Origin: Amyloporia xantha
Lineage: Eukaryota > Basidiomycota > Agaricomycetes > Polyporales > Adustoporiaceae
NCBI GenBank assembly: GCA_036971615.1
Contig: JAYKKR010000004.1
Coordinates: forward strand, 1,922,001-1,986,000
Reading direction: 5' to 3'
Length of the DNA stretch: 64,000 bases
Made by a program: the position numbers and the translations under genes. Every line of letters starts with the position of its first letter. Positions within the stretch are counted from its first letter, which is position 1. Below the pieces are notes generated by a model. The model saw only the letters and a list, made by a program, of their open reading frames with translations. It searched no databases and was not told the DNA's origin. This document shows positions 2,285-44,614 of this stretch, piece after piece.

Positions 2285-3339
2285 AGTAGTAATGCCACGG
2301 ATACGTTGGTGAACGTTGAGAATAATACGACATGATGTGGATGAAGCGCATGCTAAACGATCGAAAATACAGACTGATGTTCAGTACCCTCGCTTTTATC
2401 GCAATTCCTACTGGGCACTCATCAGCAGCAAAATATGTGCCCACTAGCAATGCATGCCAGCGGCTATGGAACACAGCACACGATGCACTCCCATGGAGTA
2501 GCTTGTGAGATCGAGAAATGACTGAAACCTCCTATAGAGCTCGCATGGCAGGAGCTAGTTCAGACCGACCGACTCGTACAGCAGAAGCGCAGAGGTCATG
2601 TATCAGAATGACAATCTTCAGATTTTGATAATGTTCGCCGAACCCTGGTCGAGCGATGCTTACTCTCCTTAACAATCAATATCAGTGGTAGAAGCGCTAT
2701 GTCTGGTCGGGCGAAACAGAAGCAATGTCTGAGAGCGCATTATGCCTGTAGAGATCTGACACTTGTCATTCATGACAGGGCGCCTGTTTGTGGTGACAAT
2801 AAAAGTGCCGCTGGATCTAAACCAATGGAGTTCACTATAGCTAGTTGTTTTTGCAAGCTATCCCGCTGAAAGCGGGCATGGTGACGAGAAATCACGCTGC
2901 GAGAACATATCATTCAGCATATGTAAATCTGCCAGGTTAGATGCCCATGTACTCTACTCACCGCACGATACCACATATCCTAGGTGCTCTATTGATCAAC
3001 TGCTCGAGGAATGGGTGAATCAAGGGCGATAGTGACATCATTAGATCAGAAGTCTCCCCTGCTCATTAAAAATTCACTTAGCGTCTGTGACTCGACGTGT
3101 CTTCGTACAACAAGAAGGCATGAGCGACTCTACTTGAACCTTGCTACCGAGCGGCCGTCCGGCCATCGCAGTGAGAGTTTCGATGCAAAAAAGCAAGCAA
3201 GGTTTCTCCCATAAAGTACACCTTTAAGAGAGTCCCAGAGGATGCAATCAAGACTGAATTAAAAATCATAACGCTTCATTCAACTGAGAGAGTGATTGAG
3301 AGAATGAGACAGTGTAAACGTTGCGCATGCGATTTTCGG
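2285..3339. other. Intergenic, 5' flank of ADH copy 1
   Basis: No gene is supported here. The part nearest the ADH pseudogene (about 2285-2470) resembles the upstream flanks of the ADH-like genes at 51.3 kb and 53.2 kb, for example around the CTTTTATC and TGCCCAC words. The promoter was therefore duplicated with the gene. The rest is AT-rich, and its short open frames are not conserved elsewhere in the window. Confidence 0.5.
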
Positions 3340-3344
3340 AACTT

Positions 3345-3740
3345 CAAATTGACTTCACTCACGCATTCCAAGATCGTTGCGGAGATCGCCGAGATTTCCT
3401 TGGAGCCGTCATGCTGAACTGTAAGTACATGTTCGTTGATATACATTCAAGCATTGTGAGATTTTCGCAGACAAGTTGGCAGCTCTACAACATAACCCAT
3501 TCTACCTTGAGTCTTTTCTGGAGTCTCCCTCTCCTCTTTTCGCGAGTGCAAAAATTTCGGCAGAGTCCGGGATGGGTCTGGGCGTGCGCTGCAGGTGTGC
3601 AAACTATTCGTACTCATCAAAGACATATACATATGACAAAGTATCAAACATAGCATTTTATAATCCAAGTGCCCTATTTCGGAATTTCCAGGACATACGC
3701 GCAATTGCAGACGTGGATGGTGGCTGTAGCAACTTATAAG
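3345..3740 (+). other. Conserved coding-like remnant at the arm end
   Basis: Both arms hold a similar stretch here with a possible splice donor (GTAAGT near 3421) and acceptor (TTTCGCAG near 3470). The flanking words read DRRDFLGAVML and LAALQHNPFYLE in this arm, and DRRSREFLEDAMLKF and LAALQQNPFYLE in the other. The first word is faintly like the RNase III signature, but it is far too short to call. The frame does not stay open in either arm. It may be the last exons of a gene left outside the duplication. I do not assign a function. Confidence 0.25.
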
Positions 3741-3875
3741 TCGATAGGCGCCCGTCCCAGTCTCCGCGTCGACCGCATCAAAGTTGTTTGATCCCTCTCT
3801 ACTCATCGTCGTGGGCTGTTTGCTATTGCTGTCGACGATTTGCAAGATCATATTTCAGAATCTCACTAAGTGAAC

Positions 3876-4693
3876 ATGGCTAACTCCACCTATAAGTCCT
3901 ACGTCATCCCCAACTCAGTCCTCATAGCCTCGCTCGGACTATCCAGACATCCCGAGGGAGGTACTAACAGCCTTGTCGCGGCTTTATGTTTGCCAACCGT
4001 GTGACTCTCCAGGGTACTTCGCGGAAACTGATCGCCAGTCGGAGATGATTCCTTCTCCATTTGCCGGTTGGTGCTGTGCCTCACGCATTCGAATTGTGCT
4101 ATATTCTCTTTGTGCAGAGAATGCTCCGCGATCGCTAGCGACAAGCATTTACTACCTCCTTACACCCGATGAGCGCAACGGCGTGTTTCATATGAACAAG
4201 TCTGCCGTGCGTCATGCATTCAATCTGTCATTGGTCGACACTGTCTCGAATTTCGATACATAGACCATGCATGTCCACCATCAAGGTCGCGCTGAGTACA
4301 TCCTGATCACACCCAGCAGCCCTCCTCGTATTGAGCGCAAGGTATGCTTCTTCCTGCCTAGAAAAAAAAGCAACTTACGTCTTTATCTCAAGATCATTGG
4401 TCCTAACATCAACGCCGGCGACGTCCTTCAGCTCCTCGTCCCCTCGGGCGTCTGGAAGATGTCCCGCCTTCTCCCTGCAGATCTCGAGTCCGCTGACTCG
4501 TAAGTCAGAATGTCCGACTTTCACTCAAAGCTGAGCTGAATTTGACGCGTCCTGCTACAGGCCCGACACACGCGATCACACTGGCTGTCTGATCACAGAG
4601 GTCGTGTTCCCCGGCTTCCTGACCAAGGCCGAATTAGAGTCACTGATGGGTGGACCGGAAGCCGAGGAGTGGATGGAATATGTGCGAGAATAG
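3876..4693 (+). CDS. DUF985-family cupin protein, left-arm copy with a 21-bp deletion
   Basis: Six exons (3876-3960, 4013-4066, 4118-4206, 4264-4341, 4393-4499, 4561-4693) give 181 residues, close to the usual size of the DUF985/Cupin_5 family. Motifs include HPEGGYFAETDRQSE, SIYYLL, FHMNKSATMHVHHQG with its histidines, and ERKIIGPNINAGDVLQLLVPSGVW. The family is a single RmlC-like beta-barrel; its biochemical role is poorly known, and I infer no substrate. Compared with the right-arm copy at 15423-16267, seven residues (AWEDHGF) are missing between VVFPGF and LTK, a 21-base in-frame deletion within a motif the family usually keeps. The copy is open but may be impaired. It lies upstream of an MDR reductase in the same orientation, about 1.75 kb apart. 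Confidence 0.82.
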
Positions 4694-41342: not shown

Positions 41343-44300
41343 TCACAATTCCAACTTGATCCGATGATACAACTCGGCCCCCTTCCTCATCTCATCCGCA
41401 CTCTCTGGCGGAGCCTCCTCACCGTCCAGCCCAAACGCCTGCACCCCAGAGTACTCGAACGGCGGGACCGTGTTCGGCACGCAATTCACGGACTTGACGC
41501 CGTAGTCTTCGTACGTCCACGCGGCACCAGGGTGGGTGGGTGGCGAGAGGAGGATGGCATTCGTTGCATCCATCGATACGTCCGAGTCGAAGTAGTTGAG
41601 CGGGGTGAGGAAGAAGCTAGAGAAGGCGCGGCGCGTCAGGCTATTCGTTCCCCCGCCAGGAAAGTGGTAGACATACCTGGAAGTAGCGACGTTCGTACGC
41701 GTGTTCGGCGCGTCCTCCGCTTGAGGCTATAAAGCGGTCAGGAACGTTTGAGTAGCGCGGTAGGGAGCGAAACGACCACACGTACAAGATGATGCATCCC
41801 GACATTTACCCACGCGACCAGATCCTCCTGGGTGATATTCTCCCCATCAAAGAACTTGTGGAAGTCGACCATCGGCGCGCCGGGCAGGTTCTGGTTCCAC
41901 ATGCTGCTCGATGTCGGCTCCGTCTCCTTGCGGCGCGACACGGCGAGGTTGTATCTTGCCCAGTTGGCGTTGTTCAGCAGCCGCTTCGAGCCCACGACCG
42001 TCTACCCCCGGGCCACCGTTCAGGAATCAGACGGTCACATGGAGAGCAAATGGAACAAAAACGCGCATGGATGGATGGAGCTGGAACTCACGTTATGCAC
42101 GGGCGAGTAGCCCGGGTGGATCGCGTACCCACGGGAAATGCCCCATCGGTTGCGCTCGTCAGTGTTCACGAGTGCGTATCCGCCTTGGAAGTTTGGCGGG
42201 AACCGAAGTAGTGCATCATCCTCGTTCTCGATAATCTTCCGCGTGATCTTCTGCTGGAGGACGGTGCTACCCCAGTCGTCCTCGAACCAGGGCTGCTCGA
42301 CCTCCTCTTGCGCAGTGCTGGTGGACAGCAGCGAGTTTGCCGGGCCAGCAACGTCCAAATCGACCTGCCATGCAAGACAAAATGCTGAGGGTGTGAAGGA
42401 GGGAACACCGGATAAAGTGCTGACCTTATAATTAATAACGTGGTCGTGCAGCGATCCCACTGAAATGAACGTTGAGTAACATCATGGCGATGGATATATG
42501 GATACCTACTAGTCGTGTCGCGGATAGCCGTGCCATACCCTTCTTGTGTGGGCTCCCAGAAGCCGCCCTGGAGGTATCCGGACGCAGAAAGCTTGACTTC
42601 TACGGTACCATCGAGCTGGAAGATGTAGTCGAACTACGGCATATGAGCTGCTGCTTCTGGGTATGATATCCTGTTGACTCACCACTGGCAGATAAAATCA
42701 GATGAGGGAATATCACTTCAAACTCAAAACGGGGGAGAAACCCGGCATTACTCACAGTAATCATAGCTGTTTCACCGTCAGCGAATCAAAAAATGTGAAA
42801 ATACCGCCACCACTCACTTTCCGACGGTCGCAATACTCCTCACGACTAGCACATAGCCCTTCACCGCGCCGAACTCACCCGCACTATAGCCCATATGACG
42901 CGTAAGCGGGAGACCCGTATCATGCTCGAACACGCAGATTGCGCGCTGCCGCGTGATACTGCCCATATACGAGTGCGTCGTCGCGGGGAGGAAGACAGCC
43001 TCGTGCGGGCAGTCGTACCCCGGGAGCATGTCGCGCACAGAGGCGCCCTGATAGGTGATTTGATTCAGGTCTTATGTAAAACACCTAGGAGGGAGACGAG
43101 TACGTACCATGCCGAAGTAGCGGTCGAGCCATGCGGTCGTGGATTGCATGGGGTCGTTCCCGGCTGCAACCATTCGATAAGACATGCGATTTCATCATTC
43201 AAAGTACACCTACCGTACTGTGCGATCGCCTCCTGCGGCGCAAGCTGTCACCAAGTAGTCAGCAACCAGCGTTACCAGACCATACACGAAAACGAACCTC
43301 GTAGATCAGCCTCTCGCCCTTGAACCGCACGTCCCAGAAGCTGAGGCCCATATCGCGATCGAATCCGAGGTACATGCCCCAGCCCATCCAGCTCACATAC
43401 TGTGTCGCACGATCGACGCGGAAGCGGAGACCGGCGAACGAGACCGAGCGTGGGCCAGGAAGATGATCGAGGTCGCGCGGGCTGGTGTCAGGGCGGAAGC
43501 GCGTCGTCCATGCGGTGTCCTTGCTGTCCGGGCGCGCGGGGAGCCGCTTCAGCGTCCCGCTGTGGAACGCGTCGAGGAACTCGGCCGTGCTGTTGAACAC
43601 CTGGTGGTTGTACACAATCTAAGGGCGGTGGGCGTGAGCGAGGACAGGCCGGGGAGGGTATGGAACCACGAACCTTGAGCAGCTGCCATTGGCTTGGATC
43701 TGTCCCGGACATGTCCATGTAGATGAAGAACCCGACGGGGTGCAGGTAGAGCCCCGGGACATTGCGTCGCCAGTTGATCCACGTCCGGCGGAACGTGCCA
43801 TCGAAACTGAGAGGCCCAACAGCGCCCGCGACGAGCGTGTCGTTTGGCAGACCGAGAGCGACGCCGTCGAAAAGTTCCTAAACGGACGAATTTGCATGTG
43901 CCGGACACAGACAATTGATCGACTCACCTTGGTCGCTTCGGCGAGAGCGGGCATGATGTCCGTCAGCATTGGGCTCATCTCGGCGAGAGATGTGATGCCC
44001 CTGGCGTTGAACGGCACAGAGTCGCGGTGGTAGATCTCCGTGAGCTCGCGCATGCCCGTCTTCTCGCTGATGGGCAGCGGTCCGACGAGGTAGTCCTGCA
44101 CGACAGGCTCAGATGCCGCTCCGTGGTGGATCGTCACACGCGCGTAGCGATCGAGCGGGGCCTGGCCAGCAGGATCGGCGAGGTAAGCGAGCGCATCTGC
44201 TTTGGCAGGGCGGAAGGCGCCGATGTGGTAGATGAAGTTGTCGGAGAGTGTGATACGATTGCCGGGGGTGAGGTTGAGTGCGCGCTCAGGAGCATCGAGC

Positions 44301-44614
44301 CAGTCGGCGATCGCGACCGTTTCGGGGACGGTGAGTGAGGCCCAGGGATTGACGGGTGCTGGTGGGGATGCCGGAGGAGGGAGACCCGACGCGCACTGTT
44401 TCAGAGGCTCGTCGTTTGAGTCTGCGTAGCCAGTGGGACTCGGGGTGCGGAAGTGGTCCAGATAAGGAGGGATAGTGTAGAACGCAGAGAGCGCAGCCGT
44501 TGCTACTACGAAGAAGACACTCAGAAGGAGGCGTCGAGAGTGCAGGGATGGACGGCGAGGTTCATGCTCGGTGCCGTCGTCGCTTTTGAGCGACTGGTAG
44601 TGCGCGCTGGCCAT
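41343..44614 (-). CDS. Copper amine oxidase (TPQ-dependent), with microexons at the active site
   Basis: Fourteen exons give 837 residues: 43928-44614, 43674-43877, 43298-43618, 43214-43244, 43108-43163, 42818-43047, 42756-42766, 42683-42684, 42510-42633, 42425-42459, 42092-42364, 41786-42001, 41677-41726, 41343-41616. These enzymes oxidise primary amines to aldehydes, H2O2 and ammonia using copper and topaquinone (TPQ). Seen: a membrane anchor at residues 29-48 (type II or secreted with an uncleaved anchor), catalytic Asp about 428 (TAWLDRYFG), TPQ motif TVGNYDY with Tyr about 511 (83 residues on, the spacing of the E. coli enzyme), copper ligands LHDH (560, 562) and GMHHL (728). The TPQ codon is on an 11-nt exon, and the frame needs a following 2-nt exon. 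The upstream in-frame ATG at 44686 is less likely. Confidence 0.88.

Follow-up and report, generated by a model that had tools for sequence, protein, structure and literature searches.

We report a copper amine oxidase gene of the polypore Amyloporia xantha in which the predicted exon 8 is two nucleotides long, and we consider it likely (a probability of roughly 0.8) that this is a real coding exon joined to its neighbors by sequential splicing, as predicted from the DNA. It directly follows an 11-nucleotide microexon carrying the codon of the tyrosine of the topaquinone (TPQ) cofactor. In related fungi the intron downstream of this codon, where one is read, lies at one of two alternative positions two nucleotides apart, and the gene described here appears to hold introns at both.

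Results

A copper amine oxidase gene with a predicted two-nucleotide exon

The gene occupies positions 41343..44614 on the minus strand of the window, the 64,000-nucleotide stretch of contig JAYKKR010000004.1 that was analyzed. Joining its 14 exons gives a coding sequence of 2514 nucleotides including the stop codon, the length proposed in the initial annotation, and an open frame of 837 amino acids with zero internal stops. The family assignment made there was also borne out: the product matched the PF01179 catalytic-domain profile with 409.9 bits against a cut-off of 27, DUF1965 was matched as well, and 3pgb_A was the top PDB sequence match (E = 2.6e-139). The two top-ranking PDB sequences, 3pgb and 1rky, both align their NYDY with that of the A. 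xantha protein, and the HDH and HH of the latter align with identical letters of both. We take such an HxH and a distal histidine to be the copper ligands of copper amine oxidase. The TPQ motif N-Y-[DE]-Y is present in the spliced model, where it needs the inclusion of exon 7, while the frame downstream of it needs exon 8.

The order of exons and introns around the motif, all on the minus strand, is as follows. Exon 6 (42818..43047, 230 nucleotides) ends in GTC GGA AA, and intron 6 (42767..42817, 51 nucleotides, phase 2, GTGAGT..CAG) lies within the Asn codon preceding the TPQ tyrosine. Exon 7 (42756..42766) is the 11-nucleotide microexon CTATGATTACT, whose TAT is the TPQ tyrosine codon and which aligns with the NYDY of 3pgb and 1rky; the initial placement of this tyrosine in an 11-nucleotide exon is supported. 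Intron 7 (42685..42755, 71 nucleotides, phase 1, GTGAGT..TGCCAG) has a branch-like CTGAT 13 nucleotides before its end and is followed by exon 8 (42683..42684), the two nucleotides TG, which complete the Leu codon T|TG. Intron 8 (42634..42682, 49 nucleotides, phase 0, GTGAGT..CCGTAG) has a branch-like CTCAT 10 nucleotides before its end and leads to exon 9 (42510..42633, 124 nucleotides), which starts with TTC GAC TAC (FDYIFQLDG). The three intron lengths and the CAG and TAG ends are those noted at the outset. Introns 6-8 have the GT-AG ends, the size of fungal introns (49-71 nucleotides) and the branch-like CTNAY of U2-type introns, the last being CTGAC, CTGAT and CTCAT, respectively, at 10-13 nucleotides from the 3' end; CTNAY is absent from 6 of the 21 introns tabulated.

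Three further observations concern this region or its counterparts in the genome. The two arms of a 12-nucleotide inverted repeat (92%; 42555-42566 and 42650-42661) lie in exon 9 and intron 8, respectively, and the repeat may be due to chance. Apart from this gene, the genome matched at one copper amine oxidase locus only, locus counts being lower bounds: a paralogue (G000:C23), which by eye also has an intron inside its TPQ motif (L009, 3973-3913, minus strand), placed elsewhere: AAC TAC G|GTCCGT..GCAG|AA TAC. A second exact TGCCAGTGGTGAGT is present in the genome at G000:C45:1277245-1277258, which is the level of chance because the reversed control pattern also matched once.

A single GT/GC-AG splice chain gives the family motif

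According to the initial annotation, the frame is lost without the two-nucleotide exon. We enumerated the splice chains that place one, two or three introns, none longer than 260 nucleotides, between sites in the interval 42860-42570. Among 2245 frame-keeping, stop-free chains with GT/GC-AG introns of at least 40 nucleotides, NYDY was present in 70 and NYDYxFDY in exactly one, the chain originally proposed, confirming the need for exon 8; under the same limits, zero single-intron and two-intron solutions gave NYDYxFDY. Allowing AT donors and introns of at least 30 nucleotides raised the number of chains to 20,232, two of which yielded NYDYxFDY, the second requiring an AT-AG intron and a different TG. 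A longer exon 9 was likewise ruled out, as had been claimed: exon 9 cannot begin earlier in frame because the in-frame codon directly before TTC is TAG.

Predicted order of events in splicing

The pre-mRNA would contain two small U2-type introns with inner sites only two nucleotides apart (CAG|TG|GTGAGT). Because an acceptor and a donor this close together could not be occupied simultaneously, the introns would have to be removed stepwise, one after the other, presumably by intron definition, which sizes of 71 and 49 nucleotides would suit. Removal of intron 7 first would leave CTATGATTACTTG|GTGAGT, a usable donor junction, and removal of intron 8 first would leave CAG|TGTTC, also usable. The resulting mRNA would read TVGNYDYLFDYIF and could direct the synthesis of an active, TPQ-forming amine oxidase. 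Splicing errors here are costly: if exon 8 is skipped, the frame shifts and runs into a stop in exon 10; if exon 7 is skipped as well, translation ends ten residues past ..GN; retention of intron 7 leads to a stop two residues past NYDY, while retention of intron 8 shifts the frame but leaves it stop-free to the end of exon 9.

Alternative readings of the junction

An improbable alternative is that the allele was broken recently or the assembly is in error here: a two-base change at the microexon junction would have spoiled the frame, with the CAG-TG-GTGAGT bridge a coincidence. The single 122-nucleotide intron (42755-42634) that this reading supposes does have canonical ends, and it misses the frame by exactly two nucleotides. 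The bridge was evaluated in 20,000 dinucleotide shuffles of this 122-nucleotide stretch, which is bounded by the outer sites, requiring 45 nucleotides or more per intron. An AG-NN-GT bridge is not rare per se (2234 shuffles), and 591 shuffles had one coding for L/I/M/C; however, a bridge coding for L/I/M/C whose two sites both reached or exceeded the observed strength occurred in 0 of the 20,000. Nor is another stop or frameshift found across the 837 codons, and also against this alternative stand a site that is not a homopolymer, a contig of at least 1.98 Mb, and a stretch that matches the assembly once. The initial annotation had named an indel in a pseudogene as the alternative; the comparison with relatives below also disfavors it because the extra DNA, measured against either type of relative, is itself intron-shaped.

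We consider it quite improbable that the two-nucleotide exon exists but is inefficiently included, with exon 8 (or exons 7 and 8) skipped in the majority of transcripts, which would be frameshifted, so that the enzyme is switched on and off through splicing. Skipping or retention here does frameshift or stop the reading, and scoring of the splice sites lends the idea some substance. Against a small reference chosen by eye (11 of the 13 introns of the gene and 8 of the paralogue), intron 8 has a good donor (9.4 bits) and intron 7 a fair one (6.5 bits; reference range 5.9-11.5), but both acceptors are weak, that of intron 7 (3.49 bits) being no better than the weakest of the 19 reference acceptors and that of intron 8 (2.47 bits) scoring below all 19. 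These weak acceptors also count against the favored reading of a real exon 8. An artificial 1-nucleotide exon was reported to be skipped in one third of transcripts (PMC4674806), whereas the natural 1-nucleotide exon of Arabidopsis APC11 is reported in the same paper as constitutive, and our analysis gave no sign of regulation. Another splice pattern giving the same protein, for example a 40-nucleotide GT-AG intron and an AT-AG intron using the TG at 42715-42714, is hardly credible: it occurs once when AT donors and 30-nucleotide introns are permitted, and it requires the non-canonical AT-AG although an alternative with a canonical GTGAGT donor exists. A stwintron reading was rejected, as no splice signal is split and two coding nucleotides stand between two uninterrupted introns. 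An origin from a repeat or introner was also rejected: a 211-nucleotide stretch matched the genome once at E<=1 (simple repeats and very common words skipped), and direct repeats of at least 10 nucleotides were not reported within 42500-43000.

Homologous proteins and fragments

A first protein search gave 211 matches, the best 120 of which were listed (P0001-P0120); two more, run with parts of the protein, gave 77 and then 27 matches (19 new), resulting in 96 short proteins. A search for orthologue DNA in viral contigs and genome contigs, with G000 as the only fungal genome collection covered, gave zero tblastn-confirmed relatives; a 17-base pattern matched 27 prokaryote contigs among the genome contigs, which was taken as chance. 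Among the best 120 of the 211 homologues, 48 match the regular expression NY[DE]Y-x-F[DE]Y, while the motif is combined with a different junction in 23 and missing from 49. We think that most of the 72 of 120 that fail the expected motif, which include a few partial proteins, reflect gene-model errors at the TPQ microexon. Leu occupies the exon-8 codon in 33 of the 48 that bear it. All seven listed homologues found only in lgn or jgi (P0019, P0021, P0038, P0040, P0062, P0076 and P0094) read NYDYLF[DE]Y, so that these relatives show the expected mature product; to judge from their long open reading frames (525-846 amino acids on contigs of 2646-4580 nucleotides), they are probably RNA-derived. 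One of them, P0076, is 89% identical to the A. xantha protein across 62% of the latter.

Nearly all of the 96 fragments come from lgn, ena or jgi contigs; they run directly into introns, probably because intron models were not used in calling them. Intron positions in relatives are accordingly deduced from the translated read-through of unspliced open reading frames rather than from DNA, and the fragments are counted as sequences, not as independent species (P0191, P0192 and P0194 are among near-identical ones), with the orthology of those without names resting on similarity.

Two alternative intron positions downstream of the TPQ tyrosine

An exit into intron 6 (AA|GT, seen as ..GK*, ..GKYV or similar) was read in 43 of the 96 fragments, and 23 read straight to NYDY with intron 6 absent. 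In five fragments (P0133, P0138, P0149, P0153 and P0175), a single open reading frame contains, by eye, the TPQ microexon and its two borders; P0122, P0123, P0124 and P0173 were rejected as microexon fragments, having GK elsewhere and NYDY read without intron 6. Judged by these translations, this gene is not alone in having a TPQ microexon.

After the motif, a phase-1 donor (an NGT codon, e.g. CES = TGT GAG TCN) was found in 7 of 96 fragments (P0121, P0142 and P0179 and, in a shifted frame, P0138, P0149, P0153 and P0187), with P0133 added by eye, and a phase-0 donor (LVS, IVS, LVR or IVR) in 13 of 96, with P0175 added by eye. On the acceptor side, V before F (..AG|TN TTC, phase 1) was seen in 8 of 96 and Q or K (NAG|TTC, phase 0) in 9 of 96; a second intron was not read in 7 of 96, some of which may be RNA. 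Both ends are visible for the phase-1 intron (T|GT..AG|TN-TTC, the position of intron 7) in P0121, P0179 and P0187, and for the phase-0 intron (the position of intron 8) in P0128 and P0177; the position of intron 7 is also shared with P0142 on the donor side. Both introns in one relative were not seen among the 96 fragments; their coexistence in relatives is hardly tested by this, as only five fragments show both ends, each with one intron.

The best full-length matches of the phase-1 fragments are to Fomitopsis/Rhodofomes (P0142, 93% over 74 amino acids; P0187 and P0202, 95% over 42 amino acids) and, for P0121, to Polyporus (82% over 148 amino acids). The phase-0 fragments include P0207 near Phanerochaete (98% over 41 amino acids) and P0177 near Fibroporia (71.5%), the others having more distant matches. 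The annotated Fibroporia protein P0003 keeps 48 nucleotides in frame (NYDY L VSVSLFKSQWIADDQQ FDY), equivalent to a phase-0 intron at the position of intron 8. A classification of Fibroporia as phase-0 only was dropped, as the protein would be identical if intron 7 were absent or had been spliced out by annotators; the proposal of intron sliding discussed below was given slightly less weight on this account. The closest annotated relative among the best 120 of 211 matches, Rhodonia placenta P0001 (83%), has a record without the tyrosine motif (TVGNDIVQFDY). Its Gln before Phe implies, at the level of the protein record, a phase-0 acceptor there too; for the intron end, the protein yields only a degenerate 13-nucleotide stretch that can be matched to portions of intron 7 and of intron 8 alike.

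In a tree of 19 rows, with the trait region removed from every row, the A. xantha protein and Rhodonia paired (88/93) and, together with Fibroporia, Laetiporus, P0076, Rhodofomes and Fomitopsis, formed a clade (96/97) whose deeper order was poorly separated. A broader quick tree of 48 rows, 16 of which retained the trait region, was without resolution for the pairing with Rhodonia and for the place of the A. xantha protein in the clade of 7.

Separately, in three annotated proteins (Grifola P0080, Serpula P0085 and Athelia P0109), only about 50-75 nucleotides of read-through separate what may be a phase-1 donor from a phase-0 acceptor. One frame-keeping intron cannot reconcile such a donor and acceptor, and the distance is too close for two introns; these records may be annotation artefacts or hide an annotated intron, or may be further genes with a double intron and a two-nucleotide exon.

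Predicted presence of both members of a near intron pair in one gene

Compared with the phase-1 relatives (P0121, P0179 and P0187), the A. xantha gene has 49 extra nucleotides, GTGAGT..TAG, exactly between TG and TTC; compared with the phase-0 relatives (P0128 and P0177), it has 71 extra nucleotides, GTGAGT..CAG, immediately behind the first nucleotide of the codon. The extra DNA is intron-shaped either way, and the gene therefore appears to carry both members of a near intron pair with a two-nucleotide exon caught between them. As in near intron pairs, both positions are documented in relatives with both ends read (phase 1, n = 3; phase 0, n = 2), but the mutual exclusion of such positions within one gene does not hold in the predicted structure, which has both, two nucleotides apart. 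The initial annotation had called the arrangement of microexon and two-nucleotide exon exceptional. This does not apply to the TPQ microexon, given the five fragments that display it; what would be exceptional, on the predicted structure, is the presence of both alternative positions of the following intron together in one gene.

Discussion

Exons shorter than three nucleotides between two spliceosomal introns and missed by annotation have been reported in plants, where the 1-nucleotide exons of APC11 and VPS55 are described as confirmed by RT-PCR and RNA-seq and as conserved over land plants (PMC4674806, PMC8831610), and a model combining intron definition with stepwise removal was argued for the Arabidopsis APC11 exon (PMC4674806). 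By contrast, the exon described here is from a fungus, is two nucleotides long, lies between introns of 49 and 71 nucleotides, adjoins an active-site codon and is predicted from DNA. Neither '2-nt' nor '2 nt' occurs in the main text of PMC8831610 as available. In full-text literature, a search for a 2-nt exon or microexon gave matches that were off-topic by title (an HLA-F study and a rare-disease database), which is not proof of absence because most subscription papers lie outside the scope of the search.

Among fungi, the P450 genes of the white-rot basidiomycete Phanerochaete chrysosporium resemble the present gene in having very short exons and introns of 45-55 nucleotides, but the shortest exon reported for them is 6 bp (PMC1184071). 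Xlr2 of Trichoderma is likewise a case of a functional microexon in a filamentous fungus, one that is regulated and lies in a transcription factor (PMC11121469); as far as their accessible text goes, neither report is about a 2-nucleotide exon or a cofactor site. The 2024 abstract of the latter describes functional microexons as previously undescribed in filamentous fungi (PMC11121469), while basidiomycete microexons as such are not new, given the P450 exons down to 6 bp in the earlier report (PMC1184071).

The two positions, a few nucleotides apart in orthologues, resemble the near intron pairs of Drosophila, although in that study the positions of a pair were deemed very unlikely to have coexisted and genes with both introns were filtered out (PMC2891723). 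Intron sliding was found there in 9 of 31 pairs (PMC2891723), and is called rare or doubtful elsewhere, one 2-bp mammalian candidate with non-canonical sites being reported as left after checking (PMC7730772, PMC2740785). Stwintrons, a proposed source of 1-nucleotide intron sliding, also involve stepwise removal of neighboring introns, but they nest one intron within the splice signal of the other (PMC7730772), whereas both introns here have complete ends.

It is conceivable, though we lean against it, that the gene preserves an intermediate stage of intron sliding in its two-nucleotide exon. On this view, an intron would have shifted by two nucleotides via a stage in which the old and the new intron were separated by a two-nucleotide exon, and loss of one or the other member of the pair would have given rise to the fungi that have the phase-1 intron only or the phase-0 intron only. 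In a bolder form of this proposal, the double state would be older than A. xantha: Fibroporia and Rhodonia appear to have the phase-0 side, and their records would be compatible with a phase-1 intron too.

If spliced as predicted, exon 8 would be among the shortest spliceosomal exons known. The gene would run counter to the working assumption, as expressed for Drosophila, that introns a few nucleotides apart are not present together in a single gene (PMC2891723), and it would offer a concrete, testable route for intron sliding. In practical terms, many public models of homologues lose or garble the cofactor tyrosine at this same spot.
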